Positions 54,253 to 63,586 of a DNA stretch of 64,000 bases are shown here, piece after piece. The stretch comes from Thermococcus litoralis DSM 5473. GTDB lineage: Archaea > Methanobacteriota_B > Thermococci > Thermococcales > Thermococcaceae. A model generated the notes under the pieces. It saw only the letters and a program-made list of their open reading frames with translations, had not been told where the DNA came from and ran no database searches. The stretch spans positions 546,280 to 610,279 of the forward strand of contig NC_022084.1 of assembly GCF_000246985.2 (NCBI RefSeq), given 5' to 3'. The translations under genes were made by a program, and so were the position numbers. Positions within the stretch are counted from its first letter, which is position 1. Each line of letters begins with the position of its first letter.

Positions 54253-56634
54253 TCAGAACTCGAGCTCGTCCTCTTCTCCAAAGAGCTTCTTTCTGGCTGC
54301 CTCGAAGATAATCTTCTGCTCTTCTTGAGCAACAACCTTTCTGATGAGCTCTACTGCATCTGGGTTGGCTGAGATGCTGTCAATGCCAAGCCTTACGAGT
54401 ATCTTAGCCATCTTTGGATCACTTCCAGCTTGTCCACAGATGCTGGTCTCAACTCCGTGCTTCTTACAGACCTTAATGACATGCTTGATGAGTTTGAGCA
54501 CTGCTGGGTGGGTCTCATCGTAGAGGTAAGCTATTCTGTCGTTGTCTCTATCTATAGCAAGGGTGTACTGGGTAAGGTCGTTTGTACCGAAGCTTATAAA
54601 GTCGATGCCCTCCTTAATGAGCTCTTCTATGATGAGAGCTGCTGCTGGAACCTCTATCATAACACCCCATTCAACGTCCTTGTGTGGAACGAGACCGACT
54701 TCGAGAGCAATTTTCTTAGCCTTCCTGATCTGCTCTGGGTGGCCCACAAGTGGAAGCATGACGCCAATGTTGTTGTAACCTTCCTCGACGACCTTCTTAA
54801 TAGCCTTAAACTCGGCCTTGAGTAGTTCTGGCTGATCAAGGCTTCTCCTAATTCCCCTCCATCCAAGCATTGGGTTTCTCTCATCTGGCTCGTCTTCTCC
54901 ACCTGGCATTTCCTTGAACTCGTTGGTTGGAGCGTCAAGTGTTCTGTACCACACTGGCCTTGGATAGAAGGCAGCTGCGACAGTTCTAATACCTTCGGCA
55001 AGCTTTTCGACAAGTTCCTCTTCCTTTCCTTCTTTGATGAACTTAACTGGGTGCTGACCAATGCTGAGGATCATGTGCTCTGCTCTAAGCAAACCAACAC
55101 CATCTGCTCCAGTTGCTGCGGCCCTCTCGGCTACCTCTGGCATTGAAACGTTGACCTTGACCTTGGTTGCAGTGATAAGTGGAGCGCCTGCAACTACTAC
55201 TTGACCACCAGCGGCTCCAGCAGCTGCTTCTTCCTTCTTCTCAACGAGGCTCTTGACTATGCCCTTATAGACGACACCTCTAGTACCATCAACTGTGACG
55301 TAGTCGCCGGTCTTAAGCTTCTTGGTAGCCTCTTTGGTACCAACAACAGCTGGGATACCAAGTTCTCTTGAAACGATAGCAGCGTGGCTGGTTCTTCCAC
55401 CTTCGTCAGTGACAATAGCAGAGGCTCTCTTCATTGCAGGAACCATGTCTGGGTTTGTCATTGTTGTTACAAGGACGTCTCCTTCCTTAACTTTGTCGAT
55501 CTCGCTAGCATCAAATATAACAACCACTCTACCAGCACCGATACCTGGTGAGGCACCAAGACCCTTGAGAATGACCTCGGCTTCTTCAGTCTCAGCGGCT
55601 TCGGTAGCGGCACTCTCGGCCTCTTTGAGTGTGGTAATAGGCCTGCTCTGGACGATGTAGAGCTTGCCGTCGTCCTTATCGTAAGCCCACTCAATGTCTT
55701 GTGGCCATCCGTAGTGCTCCTCAATCTTGGCACCCATCTTTGCAACTTCAATTATCTGCTCATCGGTGAGGACTTGCTTTTCAACGTATTCTGGGCCAAG
55801 ATACTCAGCAACTGGAACCTTGACGGTTCCCTTACCGGTCTCTGGGTTTCTAACAATCATTATCTCTTTCTTGGCAATGAACTTCTCCTTAATCTTCCAG
55901 GTGCCCTTTTCGACAATGTACTCATCTGGAGTTACGGCACCGCTAACAACAGCCTCACCAAGTCCCCAGCTTGCGTTGATCATTATCTCATTTCTATCGT
56001 TTGTGACGGGGTTTGCGGTAAACATAACACCGCTTGTCTCGCTGTTAACCATCTTTTGAACAACAGCGCTCAAGTAAACCTTTGAGTGGTCAAATCCTTG
56101 CTTTGCCCTGTAGAATGTAGCTCTTGCGGTCCAAAGTGAAGCCCAGCATCTCTTTACCTTATCCTTAACGTCATCTGCACCAAGAACATCCAAGAAAGTC
56201 TCCTGCTGTCCGGCGAATGAAGCCTCTGGGAGATCTTCTGCTGTAGCAGAGCTCCTAACAGCTACATAAACCTCATCTTTGCCAAACCTTTGGCTGAGCT
56301 CCTTATAGGCTTGCTCAATCTCCTTGGCAATCTCCTCAGGCATTTCAAGTGAGATTATCTTTTCCCTAATCTTAGCGGTGTTCTCCTGGAGCTGCTTGCT
56401 GTCATCAACATTGGTTTTGCTTATAATGTCCATAATCCACTCTTGGAGAGTTCTTCCGTCTTCAACCCTAACGTTTTCAACAAAGTATTTGTACGCTTCA
56501 GCTGTAACACAGAACCCTGGTGGGACTGGAATTCCAGCGTTTGTCATTTCTCCAAGGTTTGCACCTTTTCCACCCACAAGTGGGACGTCTTCTTTTCTCA
56601 ATTCTTCAAACCACTTTATGAATCTATATTCCAT
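54253..56634 (-). CDS. ppsA: Phosphoenolpyruvate synthase
   Basis: Interconverts pyruvate + ATP and PEP + AMP + phosphate; in Thermococcales it acts in gluconeogenesis and possibly glycolysis. The 793-residue protein has the N-terminal ATP-grasp domain (VPLVGGKGANLGEM, RSSATAEDLPEASFAGQQ), the swivelling domain with phospho-accepting H417 in GGRTSHAAIVSRELG and the C-terminal PEP-binding barrel with CGQAGSDP. No intein or frameshift. GGAGGG precedes the ATG; the TATA box is at 56681-56692. Confidence 0.97.
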   Translation of the reverse strand: MEYRFIKWFEELRKEDVPLVGGKGANLGEMTNAGIPVPPGFCVTAEAYKYFVENVRVEDGRTLQEWIMDIISKTNVDDSKQLQENTAKIREKIISLEMPEEIAKEIEQAYKELSQRFGKDEVYVAVRSSATAEDLPEASFAGQQETFLDVLGADDVKDKVKRCWASLWTARATFYRAKQGFDHSKVYLSAVVQKMVNSETSGVMFTANPVTNDRNEIMINASWGLGEAVVSGAVTPDEYIVEKGTWKIKEKFIAKKEIMIVRNPETGKGTVKVPVAEYLGPEYVEKQVLTDEQIIEVAKMGAKIEEHYGWPQDIEWAYDKDDGKLYIVQSRPITTLKEAESAATEAAETEEAEVILKGLGASPGIGAGRVVVIFDASEIDKVKEGDVLVTTMTNPDMVPAMKRASAIVTDEGGRTSHAAIVSRELGIPAVVGTKEATKKLKTGDYVTVDGTRGVVYKGIVKSLVEKKEEAAAGAAGGQVVVAGAPLITATKVKVNVSMPEVAERAAATGADGVGLLRAEHMILSIGQHPVKFIKEGKEEELVEKLAEGIRTVAAAFYPRPVWYRTLDAPTNEFKEMPGGEDEPDERNPMLGWRGIRRSLDQPELLKAEFKAIKKVVEEGYNNIGVMLPLVGHPEQIRKAKKIALEVGLVPHKDVEWGVMIEVPAAALIIEELIKEGIDFISFGTNDLTQYTLAIDRDNDRIAYLYDETHPAVLKLIKHVIKVCKKHGVETSICGQAGSDPKMAKILVRLGIDSISANPDAVELIRKVVAQEEQKIIFEAARKKLFGEEDELEF

Positions 56635-56692: not shown

Positions 56693-56754
56693 AACTGTCC
56701 AAAGATGGCTTTTAAGTCCATAAAATAAACACCATACGGTTAAAAAATTAAAAG

Positions 56755-56868
56755 TTCTGCGACGCTAGAATCTCATTGAGAGTTTCAACAGCGTTCTCAA
56801 TCCCATACGCATATTTTAAAGCCCTAAAAATATCCAATGTAGCTTGGAGAGGCCGTGGTTCCCTCTAC
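56755..56868 (-). pseudogene. C-terminal remnant of an unidentified protein
   Basis: After an in-frame TAG the minus strand reads REPRPLQATLDIFRALKYAY then GIENAVETLNEILASQNF and a TAA. It has the composition of a genuine helical protein end, but no start codon or upstream part. Family not recognised. Confidence 0.4.
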
Positions 56869-56930
56869 CAGATAACCGAATCAACGATTAAAGGGTTAAT
56901 TCTTCCCTTAAAATTGTGGTTTTGTGGATT

Positions 56931-57065
56931 AGTATTTGGTTGGTTTGTTCATTGAGATTGGTGATATTGTTGTTTACTTCAAAGGAAACTTGGGGAAAGG
57001 TCTTGAAGTTGTTTGTGGGAACTCTCACAAGATTTCGAGGGATAAGCCTGTTAAAATTTACCCCT
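56931..57065 (+). pseudogene. C-terminal remnant of an unidentified protein
   Basis: After an in-frame TAG the plus strand reads YLVGLFIEIGDIVVYFKGNL then GKGLEVVCGNSHKISRDKPV and KIYP with a TAA. Residue composition and beta-rich pattern look real; no start codon or N-terminal part is present. Family not recognised. It could belong to the same lost gene region that preceded the cluster at 57170. Confidence 0.4.
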
Positions 57066-57127
57066 AACTTGCCCGTCAATATGCCTAATGTGGTTGAATG
57101 CTTGATCTCCTGGCTAGTTAGCACAAG

Positions 57128-57137
57128 TTTTTTATAG
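57128..57137 (+). promoter_or_regulatory. TATA box of the 57170 membrane cluster
   Basis: TTTTTTATAG, centred about 37 bases before the ATG at 57170, with GGTGAT in the short leader. Confidence 0.5.
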
Positions 57138-57169
57138 ATTTCAAGTCCAAAAAGCCCTTGGTGATGAGC

Positions 57170-57835
57170 ATGGAGAATAAAAACGTCTTTGCGCTAATAG
57201 TTGTAATTGCTTTCCTTGGCTTTGTGGTTAATTACTACACCGACCACTATCGAGGCGGAGAAATCTACGAAGCCGCGAATAGAGGCTTTACTTTACTCAC
57301 ACAAGGATTTAACGTTACTGTTTTTGTGGAAACTGTGGATGGAAAAACTTTAGAGGGCGAGCTTTTTTCGGTTAGCGGCTCAACAATTTACATCATCAAG
57401 GATGGAAAGACGCTTGCTATAGGGGGACCATCCGCCACAAAGGAGGATATAAGGGCAAAGCATATTGAGATTAAAGCAAAGGGAAGTGTTTACGTTTATG
57501 AGCTCCCTCCCAGGAGCGGCAAGTGCAGTGAAGTCATTGAGCAACTCAAGGTGGACGCCTACTCCGAGCGCTTTTCGGGGATAATATTCGTAAAGGGCCT
57601 TACTGACCCCATAGAGATAGGAAAGCTCAAATACAACGTGGATTACCTCACTTATGGTTCCATTGATGTAAAGCAGTCCCTCCAAGATGGCGTGATTTTG
57701 ACGGCAGGAATGGTGCCAATTGAGATGCTGGAGAAGTACATTGGAGATAAGGAAGTTTACATGTACGGGACGCTCTACGTGAACTCAGAGGAGCGCAATT
57801 TGCCCCTCAGGGTGCTAGGGGTGAAGACCCTATGA
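57170..57835 (+). CDS. Membrane-anchored extracytoplasmic protein, function unknown
   Basis: A 221-residue protein with one N-terminal hydrophobic helix (about residues 6-23, FALIVVIAFLGFVVNYY) and a beta-rich outside domain. No known family recognised. ATG 57170 follows GGTGATGAGC. Its stop overlaps the next gene (ATGA), so it is the first gene of a five-gene membrane operon whose other members look like polysaccharide-assembly proteins. A role in surface glycan export or chain control is inference. Confidence 0.75.
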   Translation: MENKNVFALIVVIAFLGFVVNYYTDHYRGGEIYEAANRGFTLLTQGFNVTVFVETVDGKTLEGELFSVSGSTIYIIKDGKTLAIGGPSATKEDIRAKHIEIKAKGSVYVYELPPRSGKCSEVIEQLKVDAYSERFSGIIFVKGLTDPIEIGKLKYNVDYLTYGSIDVKQSLQDGVILTAGMVPIEMLEKYIGDKEVYMYGTLYVNSEERNLPLRVLGVKTL

Positions 57836-58824
57836 GGCTGAAGCTCCCTCTTGTAATTCCCATCCTCTTCATGACGTTTATAGCTTTAGGCACCGCTTCA
57901 TACAAGACGCTCCTAGTAGGCACCCTTTTCGCGATGGCTTTTTCGTACGGGATTTTTAAAGGCGAAGAGACGCCTTGGAAAGAGAAAGAGTTCAAAGTCA
58001 TAAAGGAAGAACACTTAGTTTGGGCTTTTTTAATATCGCTGCTTTTGATCGCGCTCCAGATATTTATGATTAAGAAGGTACCCCTCTTGGATTCGTCAGC
58101 TAGGCACCTATTAAATCCCCACCTAACAGCTTTAACATACTTTTTAGGTGTTCCCTCAAGCGTATATCTTTTTTCAAAAGGGAAGAAATATTCGCTCGTT
58201 TACCCATTTCTCGTAGCATTATATGGGTATAGAACTCCTGTTTTAGTGAGCTTTTTAGCGTTTGCAGTCGCTTATTTTGATGGGAAAGACATCGAATTAA
58301 AGCACTTAGCAGGCTTCTCGCTCCTAATTTTGGCTGGGCTTGTAGGGATTGCTCTCGCGAGGGGAGAAGCATTAGGCACGCAACTCGTTAGGGTTCAAGC
58401 GACGACTTCTGTTTTAGATGTCATAATCGATAGGACTCCTTGGCACGGTTTTTATCACGGTTATCTCCAGTGGACGGGAATTAGATCATACCTCCTGGGT
58501 GGTTATTCACCAAGGGTCCTAGTGGCACGCTTTTTGCACATGACGACGGGTGTTTCAATAACACCAACACTTTTGGGGGGTATGTACTTGGATTTTGGAG
58601 TTTTCTCAATCATTGAAGGCTTTTTGCTCGGAGTGTATTACGGCATGATAAGCAAGGCTAAGAGTCTTCTTTTGAAAGTGATTTACTACACTACTCTCGC
58701 CTACGGCATCGTAGGTGTTGAGACGGGAATTTTGGATTTACCAGTTTATTTGTTCTTCTTCGTAGGCTTCTACGCCTTGATAAGGGGTAAATACGCCGTA
58801 AGGGTGATGAAAGTTGAAGAGTGA
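57832..58824 (+). CDS. Polytopic membrane protein, oligosaccharide repeat-unit polymerase (Wzy)-like
   Basis: A 330-residue protein with about 10 helices. The region ITPTLLGGMYLDFGVFSIIEGFLLG near residue 250 resembles the conserved G-x-Y-x-[DN]-F-G pattern of O-antigen/oligosaccharide repeat-unit polymerases, and LYGYRTPVLVSF resembles their central arginine region. It is related to the next gene and to the fragment at 61367. Assignment is by pattern only. Confidence 0.6.
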   Translation: MRLKLPLVIPILFMTFIALGTASYKTLLVGTLFAMAFSYGIFKGEETPWKEKEFKVIKEEHLVWAFLISLLLIALQIFMIKKVPLLDSSARHLLNPHLTALTYFLGVPSSVYLFSKGKKYSLVYPFLVALYGYRTPVLVSFLAFAVAYFDGKDIELKHLAGFSLLILAGLVGIALARGEALGTQLVRVQATTSVLDVIIDRTPWHGFYHGYLQWTGIRSYLLGGYSPRVLVARFLHMTTGVSITPTLLGGMYLDFGVFSIIEGFLLGVYYGMISKAKSLLLKVIYYTTLAYGIVGVETGILDLPVYLFFFVGFYALIRGKYAVRVMKVEE

Positions 58825-59908
58825 TAGAATCTTTGCACTCTTTTTAGCCACCTACCTCTCGCTTGCACTACTCGGAAAGTTCGCGTTTAAGAGTTATCTC
58901 GGCGAGCTTAACTTAAGTGCCCTCCTCTATGCCTTGACGTTTTCTTTGACGCTATTCTTGGGGTATAACAGTGAAAAGAGGTTTAACCTTCCATTTGAGC
59001 GGGCTTATGTTTACCTCATACTTAGCATTTTAGTCAGTTCAGCGGCGGGAATTTTGGGGGTTGTGGCTGTTTTGACCGTTCTCTTTGGCGGGATGCTTAT
59101 TCTAAGAAGAAGCGTGGATGGGTACTATAAACACGCTTACTACGCCGGAATAGCTTTGGTGGTGATCCTTCCCCTCTTGGCGATGTGTAAAGGCGTAATC
59201 CCCATTCTAAACCCCCAAACGAGGTACAGTGATTTAAAAGACCTATACTTGGCATCTGCCCTTTTTGCTTCTTTCCTCCTTGCATATAAGCCGAGCCTCA
59301 TTGTTTTCCTCGTGGGGGAAGCTTTTGCAGTAGTTTCAACTTTTAGGAGCAATGCGCTCATAATTTTTTTAGCCTACTTGTTTAGGGCTGAGAAAAAGGA
59401 GCTCAAACGGCTTTTAATAATTGGCGTCCCTTTGGTGGGTTTGGCGTTCTTAGCGCGCTTCTACGCAACGAAGAGTGTGTACTCCATTTGGAAGCTCGGC
59501 TTTGCTCAAAGTTTGGTTTATAGGGCTGGTTTCTCGTACATGGTTTACGAAAAGCTCTTCTCATTAGGCATGCCTGTTGGGAAGTTCGGACTTCTCCTCA
59601 ACCCGAATGCGAGAGAATACGTCGCGGCCCTTTTTGGCAAGGCAAACAATTACACTTATACAATTTTTGGGCAGCCGGCTTATGATTTGGGTATTTTTGG
59701 GCTTTTTGAAGCTTTCCTCATGGGAGTAGCATTGAGAGACTCTGAGAGGTTGCCCGCGTTTAAAGCCCTCAGTTTGACTTTTTTAATCTTGGCAATTGAG
59801 AATGGTTTTGACGCTTTAAACTTTGGGATTTTAATGGTTTCAGCCTACTTTGCCTTATTTCTTAGTAAAGACATTGCCACTATTGGAGGGATAGAAAATG
59901 CATGTTAA
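58814..59908 (+). CDS. Polytopic membrane protein, Wzy-like, paralogue of the preceding gene
   Basis: A 364-residue protein with about 11 helices; AVVSTFRSNALIIFLAYLF and TIFGQPAYDLGIFGLFEAFLMG match corresponding parts of the neighbouring protein. It starts at a TTG (58814) 11 bases inside the previous gene, with GGTGATGAAAG as ribosome-binding site. Likely a second polymerase with different specificity, or a partner subunit. Confidence 0.6.
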   Translation: MKSDRIFALFLATYLSLALLGKFAFKSYLGELNLSALLYALTFSLTLFLGYNSEKRFNLPFERAYVYLILSILVSSAAGILGVVAVLTVLFGGMLILRRSVDGYYKHAYYAGIALVVILPLLAMCKGVIPILNPQTRYSDLKDLYLASALFASFLLAYKPSLIVFLVGEAFAVVSTFRSNALIIFLAYLFRAEKKELKRLLIIGVPLVGLAFLARFYATKSVYSIWKLGFAQSLVYRAGFSYMVYEKLFSLGMPVGKFGLLLNPNAREYVAALFGKANNYTYTIFGQPAYDLGIFGLFEAFLMGVALRDSERLPAFKALSLTFLILAIENGFDALNFGILMVSAYFALFLSKDIATIGGIENAC

Positions 59909-61370
59909 TAAAGTGAAGAGGGTTGTTGGGAGCAATTTGGTTTTAGTTTGCATATTTCTAGTGGCTTTGAGTCTAAGCTTACTTTTTCAGCCTCCTAAGT
60001 TGAGTATAACCTACGATGAGGCTCTCTACATGATCATTGCAAGAAACCTCGCAAAGGATGTCTCGAGCTTTACATATCAAGGAGCATATATGATGTACCG
60101 CCCTCCTCTATACCCCTACACCCTCTCAATTTTTTATCGCCTTTTTAGCTATGATCATCACCTGAGAATAGCGAGAGTAATTTCTGCAATTTTCTACGCA
60201 CTAACCGCCACGTTAGTATACCTCTTCACAGTAGGGCTTTTCAAGGATCAGAAGAAAGGTGTTGCTGCAAGTATCTTCTACATTCTAAACCCCTTAAGCT
60301 TCACAATGTCAAATAGGGCCCTAGTCCACAGCGAGTTTTCCTTTTTCTACACTTTAGCAGTTTTTTTATTATACAAGGGATATAGGGACAGAAACAATAA
60401 AACAATTTATGCATCCTTCGTATCAGCAGGTTTGGCAGTTTTAACACGTTATACGGGACTTTCCATAATTGGAGTTTTTGTAGCATATCTATACTTAATC
60501 TCCCACTGGAACTGGCTCAGGAAGAGAGAAACTTACATAGGATTTGCACTCTTTGCCTTAACTCTAGCACCTTGGCTGTATTTAGCTCACACTCGTTATG
60601 ATGGTGCTCTTAAACCATTCTCAGTTGCAATGGCGGTTGTTACAAAAGATACACCAGTTTCAACATTCAGGTACCTTAGTGAAGTTTTGGAAATCTTAGG
60701 AGTTCCAATCATAATATTAACCCTCTTAGGATTTGGAAGTCTTAAAAAAGACGATATTGGGTGGTTGACAATCAGCTGGGGAATTGTTGGCATCTTTGGG
60801 ATATTAACCGTCACGCACAAAGAGCCAAGATTTCTGACTTTTCTAATGCCTCTAGTGGGAATCCTTTGTGCACAAGGTGTTTTCTCGGTGAGTGAGTTAT
60901 TTTTCAAGCACGTTTCATTTTTAAACCGATTCAAAATGGTGTTTTTAGTTCTAATTATTGGAATTGGTCTTGTATCATCTATCCATCATTTGCTTCAATA
61001 TAAGCAAACTTGGGACATTCAATACCTTGAAGAGGGGAAGGCTTTTCAATATGCTAGTGAGAACTTCAATCCGAGGTTTATTGGAGTAAGCCCTAGACTT
61101 TACACTCTGGCTGGTTATTACTTCCCTAACTCCAGAGTTTATCCCTTGCTCTTGACAGATTACATAAAAACTAGCGTTAAGAATGGGAGGTTTGACTTGA
61201 TAGTGTGGCAGTGTAGAAACAGTATAATAAAAGATATAGAGGAATCCCACAAATACAAACTCGTCAATGAATTCAATGATGGAAAAATAAAGATTTTTGT
61301 CAAGATAACTGTGGCATCACCTCCTGAAGCCACTCAGTCAAATTACCAAGAGATTACGAAAACAAATTGA
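59898..61370 (+). CDS. GT-C family glycosyltransferase (PMT/ArnT-like)
   Basis: A 490-residue polytopic protein using a lipid-linked sugar donor. The first outside loop carries the acidic motif YDEALYMIIARNLA (D/E near residues 39-40) typical of GT39/GT83-type enzymes, followed by RPPLYPYTLSIFYRLF. About 11 helices and a small soluble C-terminus follow. GGAGGGATAG precedes the ATG, and it overlaps the previous gene by 11 bases. Acceptor and sugar unknown. Confidence 0.78.
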   Translation: MHVNKVKRVVGSNLVLVCIFLVALSLSLLFQPPKLSITYDEALYMIIARNLAKDVSSFTYQGAYMMYRPPLYPYTLSIFYRLFSYDHHLRIARVISAIFYALTATLVYLFTVGLFKDQKKGVAASIFYILNPLSFTMSNRALVHSEFSFFYTLAVFLLYKGYRDRNNKTIYASFVSAGLAVLTRYTGLSIIGVFVAYLYLISHWNWLRKRETYIGFALFALTLAPWLYLAHTRYDGALKPFSVAMAVVTKDTPVSTFRYLSEVLEILGVPIIILTLLGFGSLKKDDIGWLTISWGIVGIFGILTVTHKEPRFLTFLMPLVGILCAQGVFSVSELFFKHVSFLNRFKMVFLVLIIGIGLVSSIHHLLQYKQTWDIQYLEEGKAFQYASENFNPRFIGVSPRLYTLAGYYFPNSRVYPLLLTDYIKTSVKNGRFDLIVWQCRNSIIKDIEESHKYKLVNEFNDGKIKIFVKITVASPPEATQSNYQEITKTN

Positions 61371-61813
61371 CGTTCAGACAAGCCTTAATCGGACTACCAG
61401 TTTTCTTATTTGTTGTCTTCTTAAGTGGAAATCTTGAAGCCCTTTTGGTCAGAATGGGATTTACATTCTTGATTTTCCATAACATAGTTTCAGTCTCTCT
61501 CCCATTTGGCTTTTTCCACGGCAAATTGTTACTCCACAGCGACCCAAGGTGGAGAGTTGCATTTATGTTTACCCTTAACGGTAGGTACACCTACTTCCTC
61601 TTCGGCCAGCCAATAGCGGATTTTGGAATCCTTGGGGTAGTTGAGGCGTATCTATTTGGAAGTTTGCTTAGATTATCAGAAACTAACAAAAAAACCGCAA
61701 GTGTTGTTTTGGCGACGTTAATATATGCCCTTGAGAGCGGAGTGGATGCCTTTATTCTTTCCGTGTTGTTGCTTTTTGGCGGGGTTTATTCAAAGTACGC
61801 ATCGAAAGGCTAA
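61367..61813 (+). pseudogene. C-terminal fragment of a Wzy-like membrane protein paralogue
   Basis: A 148-residue product aligns with the last 40% of the 58814 protein (RYTYFLFGQPIADFGILGVVEAYLFG against NYTYTIFGQPAYDLGIFGLFEAFLMG) but lacks the N-terminal 200 or so residues. The frame opens at a TTG overlapping the preceding stop, with no Shine-Dalgarno. Best read as a decayed third paralogue; expression as a short protein is possible. Confidence 0.65.
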
Positions 61814-61850: not shown

Positions 61851-62993
61851 ATGAATCCTCTCGAAGAAGCCCTCAAAATTAAAGATCAGATAATTGCCTG
61901 GCGTAGGGATTTTCACATGCATCCCGAGCTCGGCTACGAGGAAGAAAGAACCTCAAAAATTGTTGAGGAACACTTGAGAGAGTGGGGATACAGAATCAAG
62001 CGCGTGGGAACTGGAATAATAGCGGATATTGGCAAAGGAGAAAAAACTGTGGCTTTAAGGGCTGATATGGACGCTTTACCAGTCCAGGAGGAGAACGATG
62101 TCCCTTACAAGTCCAGAATTCCGGGAAAAATGCACGCTTGTGGACATGACGCTCACACTGCAATGCTCCTCGGAGCAGCGAAAATAATAGCTGAGCATGA
62201 AAACGAGCTCCCTAACAAAGTGAGATTACTCTTTCAGCCAGCAGAGGAGGGAGGAAATGGAGCATTGAAGATGATAGAAGGAGGAGCTCTTGAAGGAGTT
62301 AATGCCATCTTTGGCATCCACGTATGGATGGAACTGCCGAGCGGTGTTGTTGGAATTAGAGAAGGGCCTTTCATGGCAGGAGTTGGGAGGTTTGAGGTAG
62401 AGATAGAAGGCAAAGGGGGTCATGGGGCTTCACCTCACGAAACCATCGATCCAATTCCAATTGCGGCTCAAGTGATCTTAGCTTTCCAAACAATCATAAG
62501 CAGAAACCTTAATCCTCTAGAGAGTGGGGTTGTGAGCGTAGGCTCAATAAAAGCCGGAGAGGCCTTTAACGTGATTCCAGAGAGAGTTTATATGAGCGGC
62601 ACCTACAGATTCTTCACGTCAGAAACAAAAAGCCTTATTGAAAAAAGAATTGAAGAGATTTTAAAGGGCACAACATTAGCTAACAATGCTTCGTATGGGC
62701 TTAAAATAGAAGAAGTTGGCCCTCCAACGATAAACGACCCAGAAATGGTATCTCTTGCTAGAAAGGTTGCCCAAAATCTCGGACTGAAAGTAGAAGAAGT
62801 TCCAAAGACCATGGGGGCTGAAGACTTTGCATTCTACCTCCAAAAGGTACCGGGAGCATTTATAGCTCTGGGCATTAAAAATGAGGAAAAGGGAATAATC
62901 TATCCTCACCACCATCCAAGATTTAATGTTGACGAAGACGTGTTACACTTGGGAACTGCATTGGAAGTTGGATTAGTTTTTGAAAGAATTTGA
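61851..62993 (+). CDS. M20D-family amidohydrolase/carboxypeptidase
   Basis: Zinc-dependent hydrolase of the CpsA/IAA-amino-acid hydrolase/aminoacylase group, 380 residues. Metal and active-site motifs: HMHPELGYEE, RADMDALPV, HACGHDAHTAML, the catalytic EEGG in PAEEGGNG and a C-terminal HHHPRF. The dimerisation domain is inserted at about residues 175-290. GGTGA precedes the ATG. Closely resembles thermostable archaeal carboxypeptidases; natural substrate not certain. Confidence 0.92.
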   Translation: MNPLEEALKIKDQIIAWRRDFHMHPELGYEEERTSKIVEEHLREWGYRIKRVGTGIIADIGKGEKTVALRADMDALPVQEENDVPYKSRIPGKMHACGHDAHTAMLLGAAKIIAEHENELPNKVRLLFQPAEEGGNGALKMIEGGALEGVNAIFGIHVWMELPSGVVGIREGPFMAGVGRFEVEIEGKGGHGASPHETIDPIPIAAQVILAFQTIISRNLNPLESGVVSVGSIKAGEAFNVIPERVYMSGTYRFFTSETKSLIEKRIEEILKGTTLANNASYGLKIEEVGPPTINDPEMVSLARKVAQNLGLKVEEVPKTMGAEDFAFYLQKVPGAFIALGIKNEEKGIIYPHHHPRFNVDEDVLHLGTALEVGLVFERI

Positions 62994-63208: not shown

Positions 63209-63586
63209 ATGAAAAAATACATTGCCGCAGTTATAGTTTTGTTTTTGGCATCTATGGTAGCTCCATTGACAACAGCTACTGGAGAAAATAGCAACTCCCG
63301 AATAGGATCTCTTCAGTACTTTTATTACCTAAGATACAATGAGGGAATAGAGAAATTTGACGAACTCTACAACAAAAGCATAGAGCTTGGAGTAAGTGAA
63401 GAGACACTAGAAATGGTTCTCGAATACAAAGAGATGGCCGAAAAGGAATATGAGCTCGCATGGAAATTTGGGCATCCACTTAAGGGACACATCCAGACCT
63501 TTGTTCATATGAGGAGAGCCTATTTGTACTTGATGGAGGCAATAGAAATCCTTGAAAAAGCTACTGCAGAGTTTGAATCTTCTTGA
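63209..63586 (+). CDS. Small secreted helical protein, function unknown
   Basis: A 125-residue protein with a signal peptide (MKKYIAAVIVLFLASMVAPL, cleavage likely near residues 20-24) followed by about 100 helical, acidic residues with many tyrosines. No cysteine and no known motif. GGGTGAT precedes the ATG. It stands alone with its own promoter. Confidence 0.75.
   Translation: MKKYIAAVIVLFLASMVAPLTTATGENSNSRIGSLQYFYYLRYNEGIEKFDELYNKSIELGVSEETLEMVLEYKEMAEKEYELAWKFGHPLKGHIQTFVHMRRAYLYLMEAIEILEKATAEFESS

Follow-up and report, generated by a model that had tools for sequence, protein, structure and literature searches.

Results

The stretch of DNA analysed here (the window) comprises 64,000 nucleotides of the Thermococcus litoralis DSM 5473 genome (G000; contig NC_022084.1, positions 546,280 to 610,279). 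Towards its right end lie five forward-strand open reading frames (ORFs), the first starting at 57158 or 57170, which overlap successively by 4, 11, 11 and 4 bases (Table 1). A preliminary description, made from the letters alone, had taken them for one five-gene membrane system with three Wzy-like partners, an anchored outside protein at its head and every junction overlapping. The overlaps are borne out by the coordinates, and in the leading protein a single membrane helix is predicted at the N-terminus, with a soluble region after it. The five-gene system was not upheld, as the fifth ORF (ORF 61367) proved to be a relic of a displaced gene set. We refer to the first four genes as g1 to g4 (cassette A) and to B1 and B813, the genes found at this place in the sister genomes G006 and G011, as cassette B.

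The best relatives of ORF 61367 were not short proteins but the full-length PF01901 protein B1, of about 344 amino acids (aa), which is intact at 344 aa in G006 and G011 and shares 97% aa identity with the ORF in both. The supposed TTG start at 61367 corresponds to a Leu codon inside B1, and the ORF lacks the first 196 residues of that protein, two conserved Arg among them. A genome-wide search with B813 matched a second relic on the other flank (G000:C1:603030-603152), which aligned with B813 of G006 at 84% over 38 aa in tblastn and has 37 of 38 residues equal to those of B813 in G011. DNA homology with the two sisters stops sharply at 56862 and resumes at 61353, and homology with the cassette of another genome, G038, begins at 57125. 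The stretch upstream of g1 from 56862 to 57124 (about 260 bases) matched only G000 itself and G040 among the 21 genomes searched, and g4 carries an extra C-terminal tail compared with its relatives. As the tails of both cassette-B genes flank g1–g4, cassette A appears to have landed inside cassette B, removing most of it, and the few base differences between the relic and B1 of G011 (11 over 148 codons) point to a recent replacement. That cassette A sits within the remains of the two-gene cassette B is the most certain of our conclusions, drawn as it is from sequence comparison.

We therefore rejected the view that ORF 61367 encodes a third functional polymerase, given the ORF's identity as a C-terminal B1 relic, its internal Leu start and the break in DNA homology. 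A functional short protein modulating g2 or g3 as a subunit would be compatible with the frame being open in both G000 and G040 with a 4-base overlap at its start, and with the few non-synonymous changes, the ratio of non-synonymous to synonymous changes (dN/dS) being 0.075 against G006, 0.24 against G011 and 0.10 against G040. However, these ratios rest on only 8 to 25 differences and give no proof of use, a recent origin being enough to explain them; the short form occurs in only 2 of 61 family genomes (G000 and G040), and it starts at an internal Leu and is without the region that holds the two conserved Arg. We regard such a subunit as very improbable.

The insertion is also unusual in its orientation. 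In the other A loci with pps (the presumed phosphoenolpyruvate synthase gene) in view, and with G040 set aside, the cassette lay upstream of pps and co-directed with it in 21 of 21. It is inverted relative to pps in the window and in G040 (G014 and G038 are without pps in view), so the event in the window was not a simple swap through homologous flanks. The insertion recurs in G040, 98.7% identical in DNA, but rpoB of that genome groups with that of G038, not G000. The G040 assembly is 79% complete and has the cassette on a lone 7.3-kb contig; mis-binning or transfer of the locus may account for this.

Table 1. Features at the pps-linked site of T. litoralis DSM 5473, in window positions
Feature	Position	Strand	Description
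pps	54253..56634	-	Fixed anchor of the proposed exchange site; adjoins the cassette in most A and B loci
Relic 1	56748..56864	-	Last 38 codons and stop of B813 (STT3-like; displaced cassette B)
Left junction	56862..57169	+	Junction and DNA upstream of g1, not in the cassette-B sisters
g1	57170..57835	+	N-terminal membrane helix and soluble domain; residues 27-103 TrmB-like (arCOG03414-like)
g2	57832..58824	+	PF01901 multi-helix protein; structural neighbours of the FtsW/WaaL/RodA kind
g3	58814..59908	+	Second PF01901 protein, cassette-A counterpart of B1
g4	59898..61370	+	PMT_2-type GT-C glycosyltransferase; final codons cross the right junction
Relic 2	61353..61813	+	ORF 61367-61813; C-terminal 148 codons of B1
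M20 gene	61851..62993	+	Presumed M20-type amidohydrolase; second site anchor in this genus and some others

To survey the two cassettes, we read the site beside pps, or one other site in the case of G038, in 61 Thermococcaceae genomes, that of the window included. Cassette A was found in 25 and cassette B in 25; B813 lay at a contig end in 2, neither cassette was present in 7, 2 low-completeness genomes were left unresolved, and both cassettes were intact in none. Absence of both cassettes in the seven genomes was judged from 19 kb around pps and from genome-wide searches. The pps gene adjoined the cassette in 22 of the 24 other A loci and in 19 of 20 B loci, the rest (2 A, 1 B) being without pps in view, and it also stood at the site in all seven genomes with neither cassette. 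The M20 gene adjoined the site in 5 of 24 and 11 of 20, respectively.

Other ORFs were seen around the site. The cassette-free genomes (L086, L088, L090-L093, L096) have a large divergent ORF with a signal-like N-terminus about 360-510 bases after pps, of about 1300 aa in six of them and split into two ORFs in L090. In the window, a 125-aa secreted-type ORF at 63209-63586 resembles the C-terminal part of large secreted-type proteins (up to about 2300 aa) encoded at the same place in many relatives, and a Peptidase_S8 domain was found in 3 of 3 of these large proteins scanned. The version in G011 is similar, with 135 aa. The ORF may have arisen by shortening of a large subtilase gene.

The separation of the cassettes held in a wider set of 115 genomes, 94 of the family (two, G100 and G112, assigned to it by elimination) and 21 of other families. 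With cut-offs of E 1e-40 for g2-type proteins and E 1e-20 for B813, the latter excluding relics, g2-type proteins were detected in 39 and B813 in 40 of the 94 family genomes, with no overlap (Fisher 2e-14, no kinship correction); gene locations were read in the first 61 genomes. The tree provided nine independent pairs, of which 8-9 showed opposite states and none the same (p 0.004-0.008). On an rpoB tree covering 59 of the 61 genomes (G036 and G044 left out), in which most rows deviate in base composition from the model assumption, the A/B state requires 10 changes, of which well-supported branches make no fewer than 9 unavoidable for each label, and 10 are still needed when G040 is dropped. 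All 21 genomes outside the family had a PF01901 match at E 6e-35 or better and none had B813, suggesting that PF01901 is the older part and B813 a family-specific partner.

The distribution might also be accounted for by an ancestor with both cassettes whose descendants lost one or the other, with no exchange, and the broad agreement between the g2 tree and rpoB speaks for such a history. This agreement implies that most exchange took place among related lineages or, for the deep splits, that an older A/B pair was differentially lost. Nevertheless, loss as the whole explanation is quite unlikely in view of the absence of B813 from the 21 outside genomes that all possess PF01901, the physical position of A inside B in inverse orientation in the window, and the retention of both cassettes in none of the genomes examined.

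G038 is a special case, with cassette A elsewhere, next to a gene for an NAD-dependent epimerase, and neither cassette at the pps site. The epimerase gene (L038:10786-11730) follows cassette A on the same strand, a possible nucleotide-sugar link. The pps site of this genome (L099:8143-9381, between pps and the M20 gene) holds short ORFs of transposase-like appearance; the one scanned had no Pfam match at E 0.001, and no such identity is claimed for them. A stretch there was judged by eye to be like the final 30 codons of B1 in frameshifted form; it was absent from the tblastn matches of two B1 proteins.

The gene content of cassette A was highly regular. Among the 25 A loci, g1 was present in 25, g2 in 25, g3 in 24 and g4 in 20; one locus (G014) ends after g2 at a contig end and was counted as A on g1 and g2 alone. 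Thus g1, g2 and g3 occur together in all 24 fully visible A loci, so that the genes of the cluster do co-occur elsewhere. In cassette B, B1 and B813 are divergently oriented, and four loci also contain a homologue of g4. The absence of g4 from some A loci and its presence in these four B loci indicate that it is not strictly part of cassette A. Two B1 copies were present in five cassette-B loci, all from the genus labelled g6, and five diverged B1 genes adjoining pps (G002, G030, G041, G052 and G053) were missed by the Pfam-based count (45 of 61).

Both g2 and g3 belong to PF01901, with 201.8 bits (E 2.4e-59) and 51.4 bits (E 1.3e-13), respectively; ORF 61367 scored 40.1 bits, all three above the curated cut-off of 24.2. 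ORF 61367 spans positions 207-312 of the 335-position profile and does not hold the whole domain, and among the matches listed the B1 relatives are 341-383 aa long in 24 of 25, the other ending at a contig end. The proteins of 58814 and 61367 share 38% identity over 116 aa (E 5e-20), and the kinship of the three thus goes beyond chance. The motif that the preliminary description had noticed in three ORFs is indeed common to them (TPTLLGGMYLDFGVFSIIEG in 57832, FGQPAYDLGIFGLFEAFLMG in 58814 and FGQPIADFGILGVVEAYLFG in 61367), but it does not lie in the final helix as had been proposed, since two further helices follow it in the g2 model. In profile-profile comparisons, g3 matched B1 over nearly its full length at E 7e-43, which makes B1 the counterpart of g3, and g2 matched B1 at E 5.9e-15 and g3 at E 6.8e-7. 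Invariant Arg are found at 134, 177, 187 and 228 of g2, at 137, 178, 215 and 237 of g3 and at 225 of B1 (132 and 177 nearly so), and several acidic residues are also invariant in g2, g3 and B1. A tblastn search of plasmids with g3 returned no match.

The predicted structure of g2 (predicted template modelling score 0.73, mean predicted local distance difference test (pLDDT) 71.6, with pLDDT below 50 for most of residues 201-254) was compared with 1000 chains using the VIA aligner. The top rows were FtsW (Z 10.6), WaaL (9.5), FtsW (9.4) and RodA (7.9), over 206-241 residues, followed by a designed helical repeat (7.4) and the arabinosyltransferase AftA (7.2), and then by rows at 4.5 and below; with this aligner, Z below 13 can come from helical arrangement alone. 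Foldseek with the same model gave nothing at E 0.001 or better, and its top rows, unrelated membrane proteins, were not significant (best E 0.32), so that g2 has no significant structural match to an unrelated membrane family. Because Foldseek was not significant, a fold of the FtsW/WaaL/RodA kind for the modelled g2 is graded as suggestive.

This resemblance has limits on several sides. The SEDS polymerases FtsW and RodA rank first, third and fourth among the chains compared with g2, but their sequence identity to it is 8 to 10%, and these archaea are not known to have peptidoglycan. With WaaL ligase and the Wzy polymerases, g2 shares many membrane helices and conserved Arg, and WaaL is among the structural neighbours of its model; in a survey of these GT-C clans, conserved Arg are described in several bacterial polymerase and ligase families, and WaaL holds the lipid phosphates through two Arg (PMC10920833). 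However, archaeal PF01901 is a separate Pfam family, and a dolichol carrier, not undecaprenyl, is expected. Membership of Wzy_C (O-antigen ligase, PF04932) was rejected, as this family had no match in the whole genome while the control search matched in 9 of 14 genomes.

The g1 protein, of 221 aa with one membrane helix, matched the last 50 positions of the TrmB Pfam profile with 20.1 bits, below the cut-off of 22.2, and 16 of 18 g1 members had a TrmB match at E 0.01 or better (best 1e-6). In its model (pLDDT 85), residues 27-103 contain the C-terminal sugar-binding subdomain of TrmB regulators (VIA Z 9.3, root-mean-square deviation 2.0 over 70 residues of 2f5t); a second TrmB entry scored 9.2 over 70 residues, and the next row 6.5. 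The g1 loop GGPSATKED was aligned by hhalign, at a probability of only 20%, with GGMFAVIED of three TrmB-family proteins of the same genome, and by motif spacing g1 keeps likely equivalents of TrmB Gly320 and Glu326, which PMC4158304 gives as sugar-contact residues kept also by other TrmB-like sensors. Gly85, Gly86 and Glu92 are invariant among 18 aligned g1 proteins.

Unlike TrmB regulators, g1 is membrane-anchored. Considered as a transcription regulator, it had no match to a DNA-binding helix-turn-helix and none to the first sugar-binding subdomain of TrmB. Its profile gave chance-level rows only against the sequences of solved structures, and Foldseek alone found nothing at E 0.001. Taken together, the TrmB-type subdomain and the kept sugar-loop residues suggest that g1 probably binds a sugar on the outer face.

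The fourth gene, g4, matched PMT_2 (E 1.7e-15, 58.1 bits, cut-off 26.1) and, as a profile, ArnT 5ezm (E 0.0036), and Asp40 in its first loop is invariant in 16 of 16 aligned proteins, in keeping with ArnT/PMT glycosyltransferases. ArnT transfers single sugars from polyprenyl phosphate. For cassette B, the WWDxG motif of STT3/AglB was present in 23 of 23 full-length B813 proteins, and the one B813 searched with phmmer matched STT3 chains around this motif, among them the STT3B chain 6s7t (E 1.4e-6). In the two B813 proteins scanned, PF02516 (STT3) was not among the matches at E 0.1 or better; PMT_2 and DUF6798 matched instead, and the N-terminal part is PMT_2-like. Residues at about 540-800 gave weak matches to squalene-hopene cyclase, pectic acid lyase and glycoside hydrolase 88 (L060:4521-6962, L065:8798-11233), and such a C-terminal part is unusual for an oligosaccharyltransferase.

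Another possible function is that the cassette extends or caps the lipid-linked oligosaccharide of AglB and so alters the N-glycan of S-layer and secreted proteins by single additions, without polymerisation. The usual reaction of GT-C enzymes of the g4 kind is the addition of single sugars, cassette B includes an STT3-like enzyme, and large secreted proteins lie near the site in many genomes, with the Peptidase_S8 domain in all those scanned. A defined dolichol-phosphate heptasaccharide is described for Pyrococcus furiosus (PMC4476749). In contrast, two PF01901 proteins plus one PMT enzyme exceed the needs of a single capping step, and the nearest structural rows of g2 are enzymes acting on diphospholipid-linked chains (substrates according to PMC10920833). 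On balance, we consider capping unlikely, though the strongest of the competing explanations. It is improbable that the cassette makes the mannose-only exopolysaccharide of T. litoralis, which is reported together with biofilm formation in a review (PMC3191746), as no cassette gene points to mannose.

Discussion

We propose that alternative cassettes for glycan polymerases/transferases of the outer leaflet are exchanged at the pps-linked locus, and that cassette A of the window recently replaced cassette B there; we assign this reading a probability of about 0.68. Within it, surface-glycan assembly is our best prediction for cassette A, less certain than the relics; it draws on PF01901, PMT_2, the TrmB-type subdomain, the FtsW/WaaL/RodA neighbours of g2 and the co-occurrence of the genes, and agrees with the preliminary description of a small system making or attaching a surface polymer. 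The conserved Arg of g2, g3 and B1, the ArnT similarity of g4 and the STT3-like features of B813 also speak for such a function. The preliminary description had further expected the substrate to come from elsewhere, which fits the presence of flippase-family genes (PF01943) at a distance of about 280-330 kb in this genome and makes another island the probable source of the substrate.

The proposed course of events is as follows. Cassette A would have been inserted recently inside cassette B, in the inverse of the usual orientation, replacing it. In the cell, genes at other places in the genome would make and flip the substrate, and g2 and g3 would work at the outer leaflet as Wzy/WaaL-kind enzymes on dolichol-linked oligosaccharide. 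The putative polymerase g3, equivalent to B1, would join the repeat units, and g2 would pass the polymer to an acceptor, a step that the STT3-like B813 may carry out in cassette B. Single sugars would be added on the outer side by g4 from dolichol-phosphate-sugar, and the TrmB-like subdomain of g1 could bind a sugar of the growing glycan or the acceptor, guiding length or handover. Swapping A for B would then change the surface glycan, like a serotype switch in bacteria.

Several observations weigh against this proposal. The g2 tree, as noted, broadly follows rpoB, and the sharing of one site in itself limits co-occurrence of the cassettes in the loci read, except in G038. Not every one of the 25 B genomes has B813 in one piece: the contig end truncates it in G027, and it is spread over two frames in G029. 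In addition, 4 of the 24 A loci seen in full lack g4, and four B loci contain it. The fold evidence for g2 is modest, given the null Foldseek result, the low pLDDT of residues 201-254 and the caution on Z below 13; the g2 and B1 family profiles had no match at E 1 among the sequences of solved structures; and the sequence alignment of g1 with TrmB is weak (hhalign, above). The glycan roles are predictions from sequence and models for every gene of the cassette. The least certain is the division of labour between g3 as polymerase and g2 as transferase, which was suggested by which proteins A and B have in common.

The gene set itself has been described before. Makarova et al. (2015, PMC5898192), in the portion available, describe a locus (arCOG03206/arCOG03414/arCOG00563-00566) with two PF01901 paralogs, a secreted TrmB-like protein and often a PMT-family enzyme, and predict a role in lipopolysaccharide or glycosylation. 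The window cluster has the same make-up (two PF01901 proteins, the TrmB-like secreted protein and the PMT enzyme) at the level of gene content. That portion does not mention an alternative STT3-like cassette, mutual exclusion, an exchange site or relics. Among the literature matches listed, this was the only paper describing the gene set, and none reported an alternative STT3-like cassette or exclusion or exchange between A and B. Hence, as far as the literature searches go, the glycan-assembly gene set is known as a prediction and the exchange site with relics is new.

In bacteria, O-antigen and capsule loci are exchanged during serotype switching, with alternative polymerase modules at one chromosomal site and relics of the displaced set. 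The locus described here has the same two features, alternative modules at one site and remains of the displaced set, but differs in that the kinds of enzyme themselves differ (a PF01901 pair versus PF01901 plus an STT3-like protein) and in its place beside pps in archaea. We tentatively extend this to a broader view, which we hold with less than even confidence: the pps-linked site may be a glycotype-switch locus of the Thermococcaceae, in which g2 with g1 (cassette A) and B813 (cassette B) would be alternative handover enzymes for the product of a shared polymerase (g3 = B1), with repeated exchange of the cassettes driven by viruses or neighbours acting on the cell surface.

The case of ORF 61367 is a caution against counting such relic ORFs as components when gene clusters are annotated. 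The genetics of surface glycans in hyperthermophilic archaea is largely uncharted, and our results suggest that in these archaea the machinery for surface sugars is exchanged in a manner comparable to serotype switching in bacteria. Should A and B serve as alternatives for one step, close sisters such as the window genome and G011 differ by one recently swapped cassette, and the effect on surface polysaccharide, virus entry and adhesion would be directly testable. If the proposal is true, serotype-like exchange, known from bacteria, would also operate in archaea lacking lipopolysaccharide.

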